Shown piece after piece: positions 5,535 through 62,968 of a stretch of DNA of 64,000 bases (position 1 is the stretch's first letter; each line of letters opens with the position of its first letter). The translations under genes and the position numbers were made by a program. The DNA is from an uncultured Bacteroidales bacterium (GTDB taxonomy: Bacteria > Bacteroidota > Bacteroidia > Bacteroidales > Muribaculaceae), in assembly GCA_902760865.1 (NCBI GenBank), contig CACWID010000003.1:124001-188000 (forward strand), given 5' to 3'. The notes under the pieces were generated by a model. The model was not told the origin of the DNA. It saw only the letters and a list, made by a program, of their open reading frames with translations, and did not search any database.

Positions 5535-6596
5535 ATGAGTAAAATCAAACTGCTACTATTGTGTTTGGCACTGGCCGTGAGCGGAAGCCTCAAGGCGCAG
5601 ATCCTGTGCAAGGAATTCATCTATGAGCCCAAAGCATTCCCGTCATGCCATGCCTCGACCATCGCATGCCTGCAGAATGGCGACCTGGTGGCAGCCTTCT
5701 TCGGCGGCTCCTATGAGGGCAGCCCGGACGTGTGCATCTGGGTATGCCGCAAGCCGGCTGACAGTGATCACTGGACAGAGCCGGCGATGGCAGCCGACGG
5801 TGTCATCAACGACACCCTGCGCAAGGCTTGCTACAATCCCGTGCTGTACCAAATGCCAGACGGCGAACTGTGGCTGTTCTTCAAAATCGGTTCCTGTGTG
5901 GCCGACTGGAGCGGATGGCTGACTCGCTCCAGCGACCATGGTAAGACCTGGAGTCCGCGCGAACCGCTGCCCGATGGTTTCCTGGGGCCCATCAAGAACA
6001 AACCCGAGCTTATCGGCAACCGCCTTGTATGCCCTTCCAGCACCGAGAATGACGGCTGGAAAATCCATTTTGAGATCTATGACCTCAATACCCGCCAGTG
6101 GCACAAGACTCCGGCGATAGAGGCCTCACTGGCTCCCTCGCTTCAAAATCCCGGTACCATCGCTCCCATCGGCGCCATCCAGCCCTCCATCATCCGTCTT
6201 GCTGACGGCACTTTGCAGGTGCTGTGCCGCACCCAGAACGGAAAAATCGCCACTTCTTATTCCCACGACGATGGAGAGACCTGGAGCCGCGTGGAACTGA
6301 CCGATATCCCCAATAACTGCTCTGGAACCGATGCGGTCACTGTTAACCCCACCCTTCACGCGCTGGTCTATAATCCCGTAGAATCCATCCTGGGCGACTA
6401 TCGCGACCCGCGCACGCCCATCGATGTCGCCACCAGCATGGACGGCATCTACTGGAACCGGCTCGTCACCCTTGACCACGAGCCCGGCAGCGAGTTTTCT
6501 TACCCCGCCGTCGTCGTCGATCCCCGCGACAGCACCTTGCACATCACCTATACCTGGAAGCGACAGCGCATCGTCTATGCCCATGTGAAGCCTTGA
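5535..6596 (+). CDS. Exported sialidase-family (BNR repeat) protein
   Basis: The 353-residue product begins with a clear signal peptide (KIKLLLLCLALAVSGSLKAQ, cleavage after residue 22). It then folds as a six-bladed propeller of the BNR/sialidase superfamily. Asp-box-like turns are visible: SSDHGKTWS near 137, SHDDGETWS near 250 and a weaker SMDGIYW near 300. An early HAST...NGDLVAAFFGG segment is typical of the family. Members include true exo-sialidases, but many Bacteroidales relatives act on other glycans, so the substrate is not settled. There is no other Met within the signal peptide, so the start is fixed. The next gene, a porin, has its own promoter, so this is probably a single-gene unit. 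Confidence 0.75.
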   Translation: MSKIKLLLLCLALAVSGSLKAQILCKEFIYEPKAFPSCHASTIACLQNGDLVAAFFGGSYEGSPDVCIWVCRKPADSDHWTEPAMAADGVINDTLRKACYNPVLYQMPDGELWLFFKIGSCVADWSGWLTRSSDHGKTWSPREPLPDGFLGPIKNKPELIGNRLVCPSSTENDGWKIHFEIYDLNTRQWHKTPAIEASLAPSLQNPGTIAPIGAIQPSIIRLADGTLQVLCRTQNGKIATSYSHDDGETWSRVELTDIPNNCSGTDAVTVNPTLHALVYNPVESILGDYRDPRTPIDVATSMDGIYWNRLVTLDHEPGSEFSYPAVVVDPRDSTLHITYTWKRQRIVYAHVKP

Positions 6597-10195: not shown

Positions 10196-10202
10196 TTTCC
10201 TC

Positions 10203-10242
10203 TAGATATTCTAGACTATCTAGACCATCTAGACCACAACAG
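10203..10242. repeat. Tandem 9-base CTAGA repeats between gcvT and gcvH
   Basis: Four imperfect 9-base units in a row (CTAGATATT, CTAGACTAT, CTAGACCAT, CTAGACCAC) start eight bases after the gcvT stop. They are unlike the coding sequence around them. A related block lies between gcvH and gcvPA. Function unknown. Confidence 0.7.
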
Positions 10243-13613: not shown

Positions 13614-13627
13614 TCAGCAACTTGACT

Positions 13628-13742
13628 GATTAGTGATTAGAGATGAGTGATTAGCGAGGGAACACCTCCAGCCAATCAGCCAGTTTCTAATCACTAATCT
13701 CTAGTCGTCATTCACTAATCTCTAATCACTAATCACTAATCT
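13628..13742. repeat. Inverted array of 7-base TTAG/CTAA repeats between gcvPB and lpdA
   Basis: The left arm is GATTAGT, GATTAGA, GATGAGT, GATTAGC (13628-13655). The right arm is eight 7-base units, mostly CTAATCA or CTAATCT (13687-13742). The arms are reverse complements in type and could form a long imperfect hairpin. Each unit carries a stop codon on both strands, and the 7-base period moves it through all frames. The right arm ends nine bases before the lpdA start. Confidence 0.8.
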
Positions 13743-13750
13743 AATATAAT

Positions 13751-17519: not shown

Positions 17520-17764
17520 TGAGTTCAACGAGATTATTAATTGTCAATCAGTCCATTAACAGCTCCCCCTCTTAGATAAGAGGGGGCCGGGGGGCGTTGA
17601 TGCACCAAGAGCAAGCGCTTAGAGGGGGCGTTGATGCACCAAGAGCAAGTGCTTTAAAGGAAAATCATACTCCTCCCTGACAGGCATCTCCCCCTTCTTA
17701 GGGGAGGAGTTGAGTAGCAGCAATTTATTTCGGCTTCGTCGAGCTAAAGTTTCACCGAACTCAC
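17520..17764. repeat. MITE-like palindromic repeat, family 1, copy 2
   Basis: Same element as at 15172-15363, in the same direction, with ends GAGTTCAAC and CCGAACTC. It keeps the CCCCCTCTTA-GA-TAAGAGGGGG hairpin. It differs by an internal duplication of about 34 bases: the segment containing GGGGGCGTTGATGCACCAAG occurs twice, near 17590 and 17624. Together the copies bracket the dockerin gene. Confidence 0.7.
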
Positions 17765-18569: not shown

Positions 18570-18574
18570 TGAGG

Positions 18575-18609
18575 CTGAAAACTGTCAACTGAAAACTGAA
18601 AACTGAATT
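18575..18609. repeat. Tandem 7-base CTGAAAA repeats between deoD and the flavoprotein gene
   Basis: Units CTGAAAA, CTGTCAA, CTGAAAA, CTGAAAA, CTGAATT run without a gap up to the ATG at 18610. TGA is carried in most units and shifts frame each time. This is a variant of the CTAA/TTAG heptamer class seen elsewhere in the window. Confidence 0.75.
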
Positions 18610-19599
18610 ATGGCAATGTTATCAAGGATCACCGAATTGTTCGAAATCGACTATCCGGTGATTGCAGGAGGCATGGTGTGGTGCAGCGGATGGGAACTCG
18701 CTGCTGCCGTGAGCAATGCTGGTGGACTGGGACTGATCGGTGCCGGTTCCATGAGTGCTGATGTCCTGAAAGATCACATCATCAAGTGCAAGGAAGCAAC
18801 AGGTTATGCCTACGGTGTAAACGTGCCGCTGATGCGTCCCGATGCACCTGAACTGATGGAAGTCATCGCAGAGCAGAAGGTGCCCATCGTCTTCACCTCG
18901 GCCGGGAGCCCCAAGAAATGGACCGAATGGCTCCACCAACACGGCATCAAGGTCGCCCACGTAGTCTCTTCATCGGCTTTTGCCGTGAAATGCGAGGAGG
19001 CAGGTGTCGATGCTGTTGTCGCCGAAGGCTTTGAGGCCGGCGGACACAACGGCAAGGAAGAAACAACCTCGTTGTGCCTGATTCCCGCAGTGCGACGCGC
19101 CACTTCGTTACCGCTTATCGCCGCCGGAGGCATTGCTACGGGCGATGCCATGCTGGCCATGGAAGCACTTGGCGCCGACGGTGTTCAAGTCGGAACCCTG
19201 TTTGCCCTGACTCAAGAGAGTTCCGCCCATGAGAATTTCAAGCGCCTGTGCCTGAACCTGGACGAAGGCGGCACGAAGCTCCACTTCAGGAAGCTCTCGC
19301 CCACCCGACTGGTCAAGAACGGCTTCCAGGCTGCTGTTCAAGAAGCCGAAAACCGTGGAGCCAGCGAGGAAGAACTGCTCGAACTCATCGGCATCGGCAA
19401 AACCAAAATCGGCATCTTTGATGGTGATGTCGAGAATGGAGAACTGGAAATCGGCCAGGGTGCCAGCCTGCTCAAGGGACGCGAAATCGAGCCTGTGGAT
19501 CTTGTCATGCAACGCTTTGTGCAGGAATACTACATCGCTCGTAAACAGCTCATCAACCAAGCAATGGAGGAGCAGATTTCAAGAAGAACTTTAATGTAA
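18610..19599 (+). CDS. FMN-dependent nitronate monooxygenase / FabK-type flavoprotein
   Basis: The 329-residue product is a TIM-barrel FMN enzyme of the 2-nitropropane dioxygenase/enoyl-ACP reductase II superfamily. Landmarks are YPVIAGGMVWCSGWELAAAVSNAGGLGLIGAGSM at the start, VVAEGFEAGGHNG near residue 138-150, PLIAAGGIATGDAMLAMEALGADGVQVGTLF near 173-203, and a C-terminal helix. Two roles are possible: detoxifying nitronates, or reducing enoyl-ACP in fatty-acid synthesis as FabK does. The sequence alone does not choose between them. It is preceded by a heptamer repeat and followed by about 150 bases with another heptamer array and no visible terminator. Confidence 0.8.
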   Translation: MAMLSRITELFEIDYPVIAGGMVWCSGWELAAAVSNAGGLGLIGAGSMSADVLKDHIIKCKEATGYAYGVNVPLMRPDAPELMEVIAEQKVPIVFTSAGSPKKWTEWLHQHGIKVAHVVSSSAFAVKCEEAGVDAVVAEGFEAGGHNGKEETTSLCLIPAVRRATSLPLIAAGGIATGDAMLAMEALGADGVQVGTLFALTQESSAHENFKRLCLNLDEGGTKLHFRKLSPTRLVKNGFQAAVQEAENRGASEEELLELIGIGKTKIGIFDGDVENGELEIGQGASLLKGREIEPVDLVMQRFVQEYYIARKQLINQAMEEQISRRTLM

Positions 19600-19642: not shown

Positions 19643-19670
19643 GATTAATGATTAGAAGTTAGCGCTTAGA
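19643..19670. repeat. Short 7-base TTAG repeat array
   Basis: GATTAAT, GATTAGA, AGTTAGC and GCTTAGA follow without gaps in the 150-base spacer before the DUF4494 gene. It is a degenerate member of the same heptamer class as at 13628 and 56300. Confidence 0.55.
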
Positions 19671-31584: not shown

Positions 31585-32415
31585 TCAGTGACTTAAGATG
31601 ATGTCGATAATAGAATTCACATCTGCGATGTTAACCTCATGGTCACCGTTCACATCGCCAGCAGTGAGATTACCACTACCGCTCAAGATGATGTCAATGA
31701 CAGCATTTACATCAGCAATATTGACCTCGTAGTCACCGTTCACATCGCCAATTATGCTACTACCACCATCTCGTGAGACAATGATGTGAGTGGCACGATT
31801 TCCATCTCCTTGAGCGATGAAGTAGCCATATTCATCTTGATTGATATAGGCATCATTTGGATAAGTGATAGCGCAGTTCAAGAAAGTAATGGATTCACCG
31901 AATCTTTCTACTACACCATTGATGTCTGCTTGTACGTTGTCAAACTTAAGCGCACACAGCACTGCATCTCCACAATTAATGCCTTTGGTTGTCTGAAGGG
32001 TGATGTCTTTGATGGTCAGGCGAGCGCATTTGCAATAAATGCCACGCATAATGCTGGAAAGGTAGAGTTTGCCATTGCCTTGAATGGTCACATTTTTACT
32101 ATTAGTGCCTTCAAAGCTTATAGCAACAAAGCCCGTTGTGGTCAGTTTACATTCACCTTGGATAATAATGGTGGCCTCATCTTCAGTAAGACGGATAGGA
32201 TAAATATAATCGTAGGGCGTCTCGCTACTGTGTTCTACAACAGCATTGTTCAACGTGAGCGTGTGGTTACCTTTATTCCAGATGATGCTGCCGCTCTTAA
32301 TATAAGGGCAATCGAAATGTCCGTTTCTGTCGGGGCTTACGTCACAAACGGTAATTTCGGCAACAGCACCGAGGGCCGCTACCAGTGATAAGCAAAGTAA
32401 GAATAGTTTCTTCAT
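31585..32415 (-). CDS. Exported beta-helix-like protein with C-terminal dockerin
   Basis: The 276-residue product has a signal peptide (KKLFLLCLSLVAALGAVA). Its middle part has repeated short strands (TLTLNNAVVEHS, ATIIIQGECKLTTTG, NVTIQGNGKLYLSS, RLTIKDITLQTTKG), reminiscent of the beta-helix of adhesins or carbohydrate-active enzymes. The C-terminus (about 215-276) is a dockerin with two near-identical calcium loops, GDVNGDYEVNIADVNAVIDII and GDVNGDHEVNIADVNSIIDII. The DNA of the two loops is also alike, pointing to recent duplication. No cohesin is in view and no enzymatic motif is visible, so the function is unknown. Confidence 0.7.
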   Translation of the reverse strand: MKKLFLLCLSLVAALGAVAEITVCDVSPDRNGHFDCPYIKSGSIIWNKGNHTLTLNNAVVEHSSETPYDYIYPIRLTEDEATIIIQGECKLTTTGFVAISFEGTNSKNVTIQGNGKLYLSSIMRGIYCKCARLTIKDITLQTTKGINCGDAVLCALKFDNVQADINGVVERFGESITFLNCAITYPNDAYINQDEYGYFIAQGDGNRATHIIVSRDGGSSIIGDVNGDYEVNIADVNAVIDIILSGSGNLTAGDVNGDHEVNIADVNSIIDIILSH

Positions 32416-55016: not shown

Positions 55017-56303
55017 ATGAGACGTCAACTATTGTGCTTATTGCTGCTCTTAGTGGTGCTGCCGCTTGGAGCGCAGATCAGAGGTAACAACATCGTGGTC
55101 ACCGTGGAACCAGACCATCAGGACTGGAACTATAAAGTGGGCGAAAAATGCAAGTTCGATGTCGAGGTGCGCCGCTCGGGCACATTGCTCGACAACGTGG
55201 ACATCGACTATGAAGCCGGTCCCGAGATGTATCCTGACGTGAAGAAATCAACCACCTTGAAAAAGGGGACTATGAGCTATACGGGCCAGATGAAGACTCC
55301 GGGCTTTTATCGCCTGAAAGTCACCGCCCACGTGAACGGCAAGGATTACTCGGCATGGTGCACCGCAGCCTACTCGCCTGAGAAGCTGGTACCCACGACA
55401 GTTGACCCGAAAGATTTTGACCAGTTCTGGGCGAAAGCCATCGAGGAGGCCCGCTGGACCAAACTGGAGCCCACCAAGACGTTGCTGCCCGAGCGATGCA
55501 CACAAGACGTGAACGTCTATCAAGTCTCGTTCCACAACGTGCGTTGGGGAAGCCGCACCTATGGCATCCTGTGCGAGCCTGTCAAGCCCGGCCGCTACCC
55601 TGCCCTGCTGCGTGTGCCCGGTGCCGGTGTGCGTCCCTATCATGGCGACGTCTATACAGCTTCACAAGGTTTCATCACACTCGAGATCGGCATCCATGGC
55701 ATCGACGTGACCATGCCGCAGAGCCTCTATGACGACCTGGCTAATGGTGCTCTCAACTGCTATTGGGAATTTGGCATGGACGACCGTGACAAGAGTTATT
55801 ACAAGCGCGTCATCGTGGGTTGCGTGCGTGCCATCGACTACATTGAGCAATACACCGACTGGGACGGCAAGAACCTGGGCGTGACGGGCAGCAGCCAGGG
55901 CGGTTTCCTCTCGCTGGCAACGGCCGGACTCGACAAGCGCGTGAGCTGCTACGGTGCAGTCCACTCCGCCCTGTGCGACCACACGGCTTCGCTCCAGGGC
56001 GTGGCTTGCGGTTGGCCCCATTATTTTTACTGGATGTCGCCCGAGCAGCGCCGGGCCAGTCAGGACAAGATCGAGACCTCTCGTTATTACGATGGCGTGA
56101 ACTTCGCCCGCCGCATCACCTGCCCGGGTTGGTTCTCGTTTGGCTACAACGACGACGTGGTGCCTCCCACGACAGCCTATGCGACCTACAACGTGGTAAC
56201 TGCCCCCAAGAAGTTGAGTGTCTATCAGCAGACGGCCCACTTCTGGTACCAGGAACAATGGGACGAATGGCTACAATGGCTCATGGACCAATTGAGGCAT
56301 TAG
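55017..56303 (+). CDS. CE7-family acetyl esterase (acetyl xylan esterase type)
   Basis: The 428-residue exported protein has a signal peptide (RRQLLCLLLLLVVLPLGAQ), then an N-terminal beta-sandwich (about 25-120), then the AXE1/CE7 alpha/beta hydrolase. The nucleophile is in VTGSSQGGFLSLATAGL (Ser293), the Asp in FGYNDDVVPPTTAY and the His in QQTAHFWYQE, close to the end. It should take acetyl groups off imported or periplasmic manno-oligosaccharides so that the downstream enzymes can act. It leads the plus-strand half of the mannan locus. Its stop codon lies within a heptamer repeat that fills the gap to GH130. Confidence 0.88.
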   Translation: MRRQLLCLLLLLVVLPLGAQIRGNNIVVTVEPDHQDWNYKVGEKCKFDVEVRRSGTLLDNVDIDYEAGPEMYPDVKKSTTLKKGTMSYTGQMKTPGFYRLKVTAHVNGKDYSAWCTAAYSPEKLVPTTVDPKDFDQFWAKAIEEARWTKLEPTKTLLPERCTQDVNVYQVSFHNVRWGSRTYGILCEPVKPGRYPALLRVPGAGVRPYHGDVYTASQGFITLEIGIHGIDVTMPQSLYDDLANGALNCYWEFGMDDRDKSYYKRVIVGCVRAIDYIEQYTDWDGKNLGVTGSSQGGFLSLATAGLDKRVSCYGAVHSALCDHTASLQGVACGWPHYFYWMSPEQRRASQDKIETSRYYDGVNFARRITCPGWFSFGYNDDVVPPTTAYATYNVVTAPKKLSVYQQTAHFWYQEQWDEWLQWLMDQLRH

Positions 56304-56410
56304 ACTTTAGACGTTAGACGTTAGACTTTAGACTTTAGACTTTAGACGTTGGCGGATGCCAACTAGGGACTAGGGAGTAGAAACTAGAAACTAAAAAACT
56401 AAAAAACTAC
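56300..56410. repeat. Two tandem 7-base repeat arrays between the esterase and GH130 genes
   Basis: The first array is seven units of TTAGAC(T/G), 56300-56348, whose first unit overlaps the esterase stop codon. The second (56362-56410) is built of ACTAGGG, AGTAGAA, ACTAGAA and ACTAAAA units, the last ones stretched to eight bases. It ends seven bases before the GH130 start. Every unit contains TAG or TAA, shifting frame from one unit to the next. Confidence 0.85.
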
Positions 56411-56416
56411 AATATA

Positions 56417-57592
56417 ATGAGTGAATTCAAGAATAAAGTGACCGATTTGCGCAAGCATCATGAGGAGTTACTGAACCGCAAGAATGAACCCCTCGCTTGG
56501 GGCAACGGCATCTACGAGAAATACAAGAATCCCATCATCACCGCCGAGCATACTCCGCTGGAGTGGCGCTATGACTTCAACGAGCAGGACAACCCCTACT
56601 TGATGCAGCGCATCATGATGAACGCGACGCTCAATGCGGGCGCCATCAAATGGCAGGGCAAATATGTACTTGTTGTGAGGGTTGAAGGAGCCGACCGCAA
56701 GTCGTTCTTCGCTGTGGCCGAGAGCCCGAACGGCGTGGACAACTTCCGATTCTGGCCCGAGCCCATCACGATGCCCGATGATGTGATTCCCGCCACCAAC
56801 ATCTATGACATGCGCCTCACGGCTCATGAAGACGGCTGGATCTACGGCGTCTTTTGCGCAGAACGCCACGATGACACTTGCCCGGGCGACCTGAGCGCTG
56901 CCACGGCGACAGCCGGCATTGCCCGCACCCGTGATCTCAAGACCTGGGAACGCCTGCCCGACCTCAAGAGCAAGAGCCAGCAGCGCAACGTGGTGCTTCA
57001 CCCCGAGTTTGTCGGCGGCAAGTATGCCTTCTATACCCGTCCCCAAGACGGCTTCATCGACGCAGGCAGCGGCGGCGGCATCGGCTGGGCACTGGTGGAT
57101 GATATCACCCATGCCGAGGTCGTTGATGAAAAAATCATCAACGCACGCCACTATCACACCATCATGGAAGTGAAAAACGGTGAGGGTCCCCACCCCATCA
57201 AGACTCCGCAAGGCTGGCTGCATCTTGCCCACGGCGTGCGCGGCTGCGCCTCGGGTCTGCGTTATGTATTATATATGTACATGACAGCACTCGACGATCC
57301 CACACGCGTCATCGCACAACCGGGCGGATATTTCCTCGTTCCCGAGGGTGGCGAGTATATCGGTGACGTGATGAATGTGGCCTTCTCTAACGGCTGGATT
57401 GCCGACGAGGACGGACACGTCTTCATCTACTACGCCTCGAGCGACACCCGCCTGCATGTAGCCACCTCGACCATCGACCGCCTGGTGGACTACTGCATGA
57501 ACACGCCGCAAGACGGCCTGACCACCACGGCCAGCGTGGAGACCATCAAGCGACTCATCGAGAAGAACCGATCAACCAATAAAGAATTATAA
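56417..57592 (+). CDS. GH130 family phosphorylase, probable 4-O-beta-D-mannosyl-D-glucose phosphorylase
   Basis: This cytoplasmic enzyme splits mannosyl-glucose with phosphate to give mannose 1-phosphate and glucose. The 391-residue product has no signal peptide. It has the GH130 five-bladed propeller with NPIITAEHTP, NATLNAGAIKWQGKYVLVVRVEGADRKSFFAVAES, IYDMRLTAHEDGWIYGVFCAERHD (with the catalytic Asp), RNVVLHPEFVGGKYAFYTRPQ and LHLAHGVRGCASGLRYVLYMY. The length and N-terminal extension suit subfamily 1, which acts on mannosyl-glucose. A 2-epimerase of the right type two genes on makes that disaccharide, which supports the call strongly. Confidence 0.9.
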   Translation: MSEFKNKVTDLRKHHEELLNRKNEPLAWGNGIYEKYKNPIITAEHTPLEWRYDFNEQDNPYLMQRIMMNATLNAGAIKWQGKYVLVVRVEGADRKSFFAVAESPNGVDNFRFWPEPITMPDDVIPATNIYDMRLTAHEDGWIYGVFCAERHDDTCPGDLSAATATAGIARTRDLKTWERLPDLKSKSQQRNVVLHPEFVGGKYAFYTRPQDGFIDAGSGGGIGWALVDDITHAEVVDEKIINARHYHTIMEVKNGEGPHPIKTPQGWLHLAHGVRGCASGLRYVLYMYMTALDDPTRVIAQPGGYFLVPEGGEYIGDVMNVAFSNGWIADEDGHVFIYYASSDTRLHVATSTIDRLVDYCMNTPQDGLTTTASVETIKRLIEKNRSTNKEL

Positions 57593-57612
57593 ACAAGGGG
57601 CGGTAAACATTT

Positions 57613-57641
57613 CCTAACTCCTAAATTCCTAACTCCTTACT
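57613..57641. repeat. Short CCTAACT repeat array before the transporter gene
   Basis: CCTAACT, CCTAAATT, CCTAACT and CCTTACT stand in a row, ending seven bases before the next ATG. Same heptamer class as in the preceding spacer. Confidence 0.65.
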
Positions 57642-57648
57642 AACAGAA

Positions 57649-58955
57649 ATGGCAAGTTTAAAAGAAAAAATCGGCTACGCCCTTGGTGATGCGGCTGCCG
57701 GTGGCATTACCTGGAAAGTCATGTCAATCGCTTTCCCGTTGTTTTTCACCAACGTCTTTGGCCTCACGGTTGCCGACACGGCTACGCTGATGCTCATCGC
57801 CCGCATGTTTGACGTCGTCACCGACCCCTTGATGGGCAGTCTGGCCGACCGCACACAGTCGCGCTGGGGTACCTATCGTCCCTGGCTCATCTTCTTTACA
57901 CTCCCGACTTCGGTCCCGTGGGCAAGCGCATCTATGCCTACACGCTCTATCTGCTCATGATGGCCGTTTACACTGCCGTCAACGTGCCTTACGGCTCGCT
58001 GCTGGGCGTGATGACCGATGATGACAACGAGAAGAACCAGTTCTCGTCGTTCCGCATGGTAGGCGCCTACGCCATGGGCTTTATCACCCTGCTCTCCTTC
58101 CCCTATCTGCAGAAGATGGTAGGCGGCACCGAGGCACATCAATATGCCGTGCTGGGCGCTGGCCTTGGCTTCTTGGCCACAATCATGACGCTGGCCTGCG
58201 GTCTGCTGACCAAGGAGCGTCTGAAACCCGTTCGTGCCGAGAAATTCTCCTTAAAGCCTTTTGCCGACCTCTTCAAGAACAAGCCCTGGATTTACCTGAC
58301 GCTCATCGGTATCTGTACCAACTTCTTCAACGGCTTCCGCTATGCCGTGGCCGGTTACCTGATGGAATACTGTCTGCACGGTGACGTGACCGTGAGCGGC
58401 CTGATCATCAACTACACGGTATTCATGACCTTTGGCGAGGTGACCTGCATGATCTTTGGTGGTCTGTCGCCCAAGTTCACCCAGTGGATGGGCTCAAAGC
58501 GCAAAGCCTTTACCGTCGCAGCCATCATCTGCATGGTAACCTCCATCGCCTTCTTCTTTGTGCCGATGGATCCCAAGTACATTTGGGTATTGGTGGGCAT
58601 CGTTATCCTCACTTCGGTTGGCGTGGGCCTCTATTCCCCGCTGCTGTGGTCGATGTATGCCGACGTGGCCGACTATGCCACCGAGAAGAACGGCACCTCG
58701 TCGACGGGCCTCATCTTCTCGTCGGGTACGATGGCACAGAAGTTTGGCACGGCCATCTCGGGTTCGCTGGTTGCCCTGCTGTTGGGCTTCGCCGGCTTTA
58801 TCTCGGGTACTGACCCCGCCACGGGCCAGACGGTGGTAACCATCAGCGACGAGGAATCAGTTCGCAACATGGTGTGGGCACTGTTCTCGCTCTTCCCTGC
58901 TGCCATTATCATCATCATGCTTTACCTGCTCCACCTGTATCCCATCAAGAAGTAA
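57649..58955 (+). pseudogene. GPH/MelB-type sugar symporter with an internal frameshifting deletion
   Basis: The first frame (57649 to about 57895) gives a perfect start of a glycoside-pentoside-hexuronide symporter: KEKIGYALGDAAAGGITWKVMSIAFPLFFTN and the loop motif GSLADRTQSRWGTYRPWLIF. The second frame, from about 57897 to 58955, continues with YTPDFGPVGKRIYAYTLYLLMMAVYTAVNVPYGSLLGVM and the rest of the protein to a normal end. Compared with the family, some 13 residues forming transmembrane helix 3 are missing, and the lost length is not a multiple of three. As read, the protein stops after 103 residues. The gene would bring manno-oligosaccharides into the cytoplasm, so its loss would matter; an assembly error is the main alternative. 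The next gene starts one base after its stop. Confidence 0.85.
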
Positions 58956-62851: not shown

Positions 62852-62968
62852 TTAGAGGTTAGAGGTTAGAGAAGAACAATTCTTCGAAATTTTTTATTTT
62901 TTATTTTTTGCACGAGTACGGCAGTTAATGTCAGATTTCGCTAAACTCTAACCACTAAACACTAAACC
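62852..62968. repeat. Inverted pair of 7-base repeat arrays before the GH36 gene
   Basis: TTAGAGG, TTAGAGG, TTAGAGA (62852-62872) face CTAAACT, CTAACCA, CTAAACA, CTAAACC (62941-62968). Between them are a small palindrome GAAGAA-CAA-TTCTTC and an ATTTTTT-rich stretch. The layout resembles the inverted array between gcvPB and lpdA. Confidence 0.75.

Follow-up and report, generated by a model that had tools for sequence, protein, structure and literature searches.

Heptamer arrays in the analysed window

The window analysed in this study is a 64-kb stretch (bases 124001-188000) of one contig from a genome of 3.35 Mb in 61 contigs. Six tandem arrays of 7-base units had originally been predicted in it, and all six are present in the sequence, that at 19643-19670 being weak. 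As had been claimed, they all lie between co-directional genes, including those at 19643 and 62852, which are followed on the + strand by a DUF4494 gene and an ORF running from 63055 to the window end, respectively. Two arms in inverted order were found at three of these arrays, 13628-13742, 56300-56410, and 62852-62968; the inverted second arms lie within the arrays as first predicted, where they had gone undescribed. The following elements were identified, including one array of a second class with a period of nine bases:

10201-10236, + strand: array of the second class (period 9), unit TCTAGAC(T/C)A, palindromic core TCTAGA
13627-13654, + strand: 5' arm in the gap between a GcvPB-like and an Lpd-like gene, TTAGTGA/TTAGAGA and TGAG heptamers
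13687-13741, + strand: 3' arm in the GcvPB-Lpd gap, CTAATCA/CTAATCT heptamers
18575-18609, + strand: lone start-side array of AACTGAA/AACTGTC heptamers, reported by Tandem Repeats Finder
19643-19670, + strand: weak lone array of about four TTA(G/A)NNN units
56300-56347, + strand: esterase-side 5' (stop-side) arm of TTAGAC(T/G) heptamers (Tandem Repeats Finder, 6.9 copies, 95% matches)
56348-56363, + strand: apical element GTTGGCGGATGCCAAC, common to relatives with differing 5' arms
56362-56409, + strand: 3' (start-side) arm of CTAGGGA/CTAGAAA/CTAAAAA heptamers, reaching the next ATG at 56417
57612-57641, + strand: start-side array in the GH130/MFS gap, CTCCTAA/TTCCTAA heptamers, reported by Tandem Repeats Finder
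62852-62871, + strand: 5' arm of TTAGAGG heptamers
62941-62967, + strand: 3' arm of CTAAACA/CTAACCA heptamers, inverted with respect to 62852-62871

The GcvPB-like and Lpd-like gene identities are based on Pfam. The esterase gene ends at 56303 with the first TAG of the arm at 56300-56347 as its stop codon, and the weak array at 19643-19670 was absent from the Tandem Repeats Finder list at score 30. Folding prediction resulted in a z of -4.4 for the gap 56304-56416 and of -5.1 for the GcvPB-Lpd gap of the window (L286), in which the best ungapped arm pairing comprised 20/21 Watson-Crick pairs, and in no predicted fold (z +0.45) for the gap holding the array at 18575-18609. Rfam matches above the gathering score were restricted to three tRNAs in the window. 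Intrinsic terminators were rejected as an explanation, since no terminator-like site (G+C-rich hairpin with a T run) was found in the six arrayed window gaps scanned.

Some further features of the window were recorded independently of the arrays. The MFS gene 3' of GH130 (57649-58955) appears as two overlapping ORFs in different frames, seemingly one frame in relatives; either the gene is broken or the assembly contains an error. A 90-base tandem repeat of 1.9 copies is located inside a - strand ORF (31595-31766), and an intergenic 34-base direct repeat with 96% matches at 17590-17654.

Abundance, placement and distribution of the arrays

Counting 4-mers that occur three times at a given lag in 464 kb of the genome revealed 490 places for lag 7 and 297 for lag 9, with 7-107 for the remaining lags in the range 4-13. 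At the level of arrays, 864 kb contained 62 of period 7 (60 intergenic) and 24 of period 9 (all 24 intergenic), with 0-3 each for lags 4-6, 8, and 10-13. Period-7 arrays are present far beyond chance, and the period-9 arrays form a second class with the cores TCTAGA, CTATAG, and CTTAAG.

In the genome, the arrays are not restricted to gaps between co-directional genes: among gaps of at least 30 nt, arrays of period 7 or 9 occupied 60/361 co-directional, 10/70 convergent, and 6/74 divergent ones, so that convergent gaps hold them nearly as often as co-directional ones. Densities per kb were 0.98, 0.53, and 0.25, respectively. Arrays equally common between convergent genes had been named originally as a refuting outcome, and the convergent counts go part of the way towards it. 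Arrays mostly inside a called ORF are rare (2/62 of period 7 in the 864 kb), as the prediction required. Gap classes as well as the side preferences, stop counts, and core and arm tests given below are based on a second gene caller, with nearly the same results as the first; the 37% null and the unit-order, G.U, and gap-folding figures come from the first caller, which misplaced two window genes.

Four TTAG units at period 7 were detected in 40 of 61 genomes (own genome, 36 congeners, and 24 of other families), with 0 to 412 matches per congener, and in 104 of 296 genomes of the phylum, own included, where some arrays were homogeneous and the reversed control was equally high in some genomes. 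In three genomes of the same class (G352, G175, and G186), we recognized by eye 20 places with heterogeneous TTAG arrays, several of them with an inverted partner. Arrays of AACTGAN occurred in 19/37 genomes of the genus; in the own genome the exact TAACTGA is not dominant, and among the matches listed A, C, or G precedes AACTGA.

Arms, tips and predicted folding

For the anatomy of the arrays, seven genomes of the genus (2.37 Mb) were sampled, containing 121 period-7 arrays in co-directional gaps. Arrays of TTAG were found 47 times on the stop side and three times on the start side, and the corresponding numbers were 7/15 for CTAA, 3/14 for CTGA, 8/9 for CTAG, and 2/4 for CTTA. Arrays of TTAG and of CTAA/CTGA can form the two arms of one inverted repeat, with arm lengths of 15-100 nt; many arrays are single-armed. 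In 34 two-arm gaps, own arms paired better than arms swapped within the species (p=0.002), and a GGCATCCGC-like tip was present in 12 of the 34 loops. In the genome under study, the intergenic density of this tip is 26.3 per 100 kb, compared with 3.4 within genes; the intergenic sequence sampled from G015 (array-poor) and G012 (array-free) contained none. Two other arrangements were noted: on contig C4 of G000 (about 5980-6170, L146), GGCATCCGC recurs in an intergenic tandem array at intervals of 35-36 bases, separated by ACGAATT-type sequence, and at L254 and L255 (G186) TTAG arrays lie within a longer inverted repeat having CTTGCGTCGCAC arms.

Among co-directional gaps of 60-200 nt, predicted folding with a z below -2 was obtained for 18/31 of those containing period-7 arrays versus 46/137 of those lacking them, a modest difference; convergent array-free gaps reached it in 21/26 cases. 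The arrays had been suggested to act as RNA-level spacers. This agrees with many inserts being strongly folding inverted repeats, but no mark of the RNA strand was detected: because G.U and A.C pairs are equally frequent in the arms (35 vs 32) and the sense fold is not clearly better than the antisense fold (lower in 17/28 GcvPB-Lpd gaps and in 8/25 and 3/18 for two other gaps), nothing marks the RNA level.

Orthologous gaps in related genomes

Relatives were obtained by protein search. Most of them are metagenome assemblies carrying the label Prevotellaceae or Muribaculaceae, and many come from ruminants. The gaps compared were picked because the genome of the window bears an array there; runs of N were dropped.

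The gap between the GcvPB-like and Lpd-like genes (13614-13750) was compared in 28 genomes, namely the own genome and 27 congeners; two of 30 loci (L301 and L308) were dropped, as the upstream gene was absent. Predicted folding had a z of -3.2 or lower in all 28, with a mean of -5.9. The inserts themselves were of different types, i.e., period-7 TTAG arrays in five genomes, period-8 CGCTAAG in ten, GACAAGAA in seven, period-9 ACGAATT in one, and plain hairpins in five. When placed on a flanking-gene tree of 27 of the 28 genomes (L309 left out), these at least five types change at least 11 times, even between 100/100 sisters. Within one insert type, the arms are better conserved than the loop. 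A role of the predicted hairpin has its best support at this gap; elsewhere it is only suggested.

For the RuvB-flippase gap, 26 genomes with 96.5-100% identical RuvB were included after four of 30 loci had been dropped, L345, L346, and L348 as distant and L347 for want of the neighbour gene; in the three distant ones, no period-7 arrays were seen by eye. Grouping by a threshold of six shared 10-mers, which splits some single-vocabulary inserts (e.g., three CTATAG ones), resulted in 15 clusters, and about ten vocabularies were distinguished by eye. Period arrays were found in 17/26 inserts (0.0 expected from shuffles), and 17/26 had a folding z below -2. The ruvB tree required 18 changes of cluster label, with a mean of 19.2 for shuffled labels and as few in 34/200 shuffles; the insert clusters show no clear signal of this tree, and genome pairs 94-95% identical in ruvB sit in different clusters.

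At the esterase-GH130 gap (56304-56416; L069 of 18 rows dropped), 17 close relatives could be compared: in 10 the gap is a plain spacer of about the same length, and in seven it contains arrays. Six relatives keep the 3' arm and the tip with a 5' arm of AGTGAAC/AGTTAAC, not the TTAGAC of the window; the 16 bases of GTTGGCGGATGCCAAC are identical in L054, L061, L065, and L067, one base off in L064, and only partly shown in L062. The insert of L070 consists of TTAGGC and CTAAAGC/CTGAAAA. A z below -2 was obtained for 6/18 of these gaps. In the adjacent GH130-MFS gap, relatives revealed shorter, longer, or entirely different inserts, some of just a few CTCCTAA units, and L070 carries a two-arm insert of the form TCAG-tip-CTGA. 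Finally, the gap at 18570-18615 was compared in 25 genomes (5/30 rows dropped): it is 24-30 nt long in 11, two genomes reach the array threshold and three more fall just under it, and a z below -2 was found in two.

Proposed interpretation as interchangeable inverted repeats

Since one and the same gap holds unrelated repeats in close relatives, the inserts likely act as interchangeable hairpins. Within the sampled quarter of the own genome, each of the 11 unit vocabularies searched for was encountered, in 1 to 75 gaps by raw counts without a shuffled control. We favour, with moderate confidence, a reading in which each array represents an arm or half-arm of a REP-like inverted repeat that is built from interchangeable 7-, 8-, or 9-base units, swapped between relatives, and likely active as an RNA hairpin between or after genes. 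The inserts would then be transcribed and would fold in the cell, where the hairpin may protect, or partly terminate, the upstream message, and they may spread via copying between gaps or via recombination between strains. A single array such as that at 18575-18609 would represent either a half-element or a plain A-rich leader.

If this is true, intergenic gaps keep a structure as their whole sequence is swapped between close relatives, and sequence conservation would overlook functional spacers. It would also join three loosely described phenomena, namely REPs, TAACTGA and other heptamer repeats, and operon-internal hairpins. Moreover, the different hairpins that naturally occupy one and the same gap would allow a direct test of an RNA role.

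A stronger version, which we regard as possible but not likely, holds that gaps are refilled from stop to start with a new inverted repeat drawn from shared 7-, 8-, or 9-base vocabularies, faster than the species diverge, so that gene order and, at some gaps, a hairpin are kept; a machinery dedicated to copying or strand switching would write the inserts, perhaps by acting on the GGCATCCGC tip.

Composition of the units and slippage

The arrays could also be ordinary long simple sequence repeats generated by polymerase slippage, with period 7 favoured by the polymerase and the products kept where harmless. According to the available text of PMC4679880, the survey of Mrazek et al. 2007 found heptanucleotides to be more abundant than any other repeat class of 5-11 nt in most of its genomes; related gaps differ by whole units, and many genomes of the phylum search show homogeneous arrays. 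Against slippage, however, stands the composition of the arrays in the genus. Each unit combines four core bases that hardly vary with three variable spacer bases, the departures from the array consensus amounting to 69/2312 cells in core columns and 295/1734 in spacer columns. As stated originally, units differ and the period is kept: only 3/104 arrays with at least four units were homogeneous, and in the 101 heterogeneous ones adjacent units were identical in 147/501 pairs, with a shuffled mean of 145.9. Identity at a distance of two units was raised (135/400 vs 115 shuffled; 0.45% of shuffles as high). Because of this heterogeneity and unit order, the arrays do not show the pattern of single-unit slippage. 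In addition, identical units reappear in numerous gaps and in other species, arms are inverted and partner-specific, and the 18570 array sits where 11/25 genomes have just 24-30 nt. We consider slippage an improbable explanation.

Stop codons in the units

The original prediction proposed translation-stop insulators. On this reading, each heptamer would place a stop in a new frame, so that three units halt read-through and stray ribosomes in all frames. The excess of stops it expected is real in this genus. A sense stop is contained in the consensus unit of 117/121 co-directional arrays of the seven genomes. Overlap with a gene end necessarily brings in a stop; for arrays clear of gene ends, the number is 88/92. 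Among heptamers drawn from array-free gaps, the fraction is 37%. Of 42 single changes of the core, 31 retained the stop (p=0.0009, with 49% expected); two double changes, which both lost it, are left out of this test. This bias is not predicted by the hairpin reading. CTAA, CTAG, and CTGA substitute for one another inside arrays. Stops on both strands had been noted in several cases; AACTGA units carry them on the sense strand only.

Other arrays do not share this property. Period 7 is again the most frequent in 62 Prevotella-type loci, with 40 arrays (lag 8, 16; lag 9, 8; lag 14, 21), but arrays clear of a gene end contained a sense stop in just 5/19 cases, i.e., at chance level; these loci (L071-L132) stem from one gene neighbourhood, so that their 27 arrays, some of which may be orthologous, are not a genome-wide sample. 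Stop-free 5' arms of TCAG occupy the same kind of gap, as do the GACAAGAA inserts at GcvPB-Lpd, whose 5' arm is stop-free in 6/7 congeners, and period-9 arrays put stops in one frame only. Because Prevotella-type arrays carry stops only at chance level, stop insulation is unsupported as the general function, and we regard it as quite improbable. The stop codons are likely a side effect. Under the hairpin reading, an array that overruns a gene end may be tolerated only if translation soon ends, with the genus mostly using stop-holding units.

Candidate binding proteins and transposases

RNA-binding proteins with an RRM were considered as readers of the arrays because of a binding preference for UUAG/UAG; they were ruled out, with PF00076 detected in none of 25 genomes of the genus, own included, and in 9/16 from other genera of the order. 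The more general explanation, a 4-base core read every seven bases by a DNA- or RNA-binding protein, agrees with the contrast between core and spacer, which would fit multivalent binding, and with the RNA-binding proteins suggested for TAACTGA repeats in the available text of MacGregor 2015 (PMC4679880). Yet the core differs among vocabularies sharing one gap, and the first candidate, the RRM proteins, is absent from the genomes of the genus searched; binding sites appear very doubtful to us.

Y1_Tnp was found in 34/37 genomes, with four matches in G000 and one in G012, whose sampled stretches carry no period-7 array; the profile does not separate RAYT from IS200. Being near-ubiquitous, Y1_Tnp is uninformative as to whether the arrays are mobile elements driven by a transposase.

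Comparison with known systems

Of the known systems, REPs and TAACTGA repeats come nearest to the arrays. The STRR heptanucleotide repeats of heterocystous cyanobacteria likewise have a period of seven bases and are intergenic, and the likeness to known heptanucleotide repeats noted originally holds. Intergenic heptamer arrays of TAACTGA are known from Beggiatoaceae, Cyanobacteria, and Bacteroidetes, and in the Beggiatoa genome they lie mostly just ahead of a start codon with a stop in each forward unit, according to the available text of MacGregor 2015 (PMC4679880). The AACTGAA/AACTGAC arrays described here differ from them by a base or two and likewise lie mostly on the start side (CTGA type, 14 vs 3). 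In that text, the TAACTGA system has one dominant unit and inverted partners are not described, whereas here many units share a core, inverted arms occur, and inserts are replaced between relatives.

The GGGANTN heptamers of Xanthomonas and Nostoc are similar in having conserved and variable positions, in being mostly intergenic, and in lying between the same flanking genes in related strains with varying repeat length and sequence (PMC4692102, as far as its text was available). In contrast to our arrays, they are G-quadruplex-forming and use one vocabulary, and inverted arms and vocabulary swapping are not described in that part of the paper.

REPs and REPINs are, in the accessible parts of PMC3733652 and PMC3116915, extragenic foldable inverted repeats downstream of coding sequences, mostly in co-directional and convergent gaps, with densities reported to decrease from co-directional to convergent to divergent gaps (PMC3733652). 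The arrays of this study likewise lie mostly in co-directional and convergent gaps (0.98, 0.53, and 0.25 per kb in the same order). In the same sources, REPs are near-identical palindromes of 20-40 bp with a GTAG or CGTC tag; here, the arms are heterogeneous arrays of 7-, 8-, or 9-base units with the cores TTAG, CTAA, CTAG, and CTGA, and instead of near-identical high-copy short palindromes we found heterogeneous units, with 3/104 arrays homogeneous. Short vocabularies of heterogeneous units combined with replacement at fixed gaps were not found described in the available parts of the related-repeat literature. The distribution, inverted arms, and lability of the arrays are those of REP-like extragenic inverted repeats.
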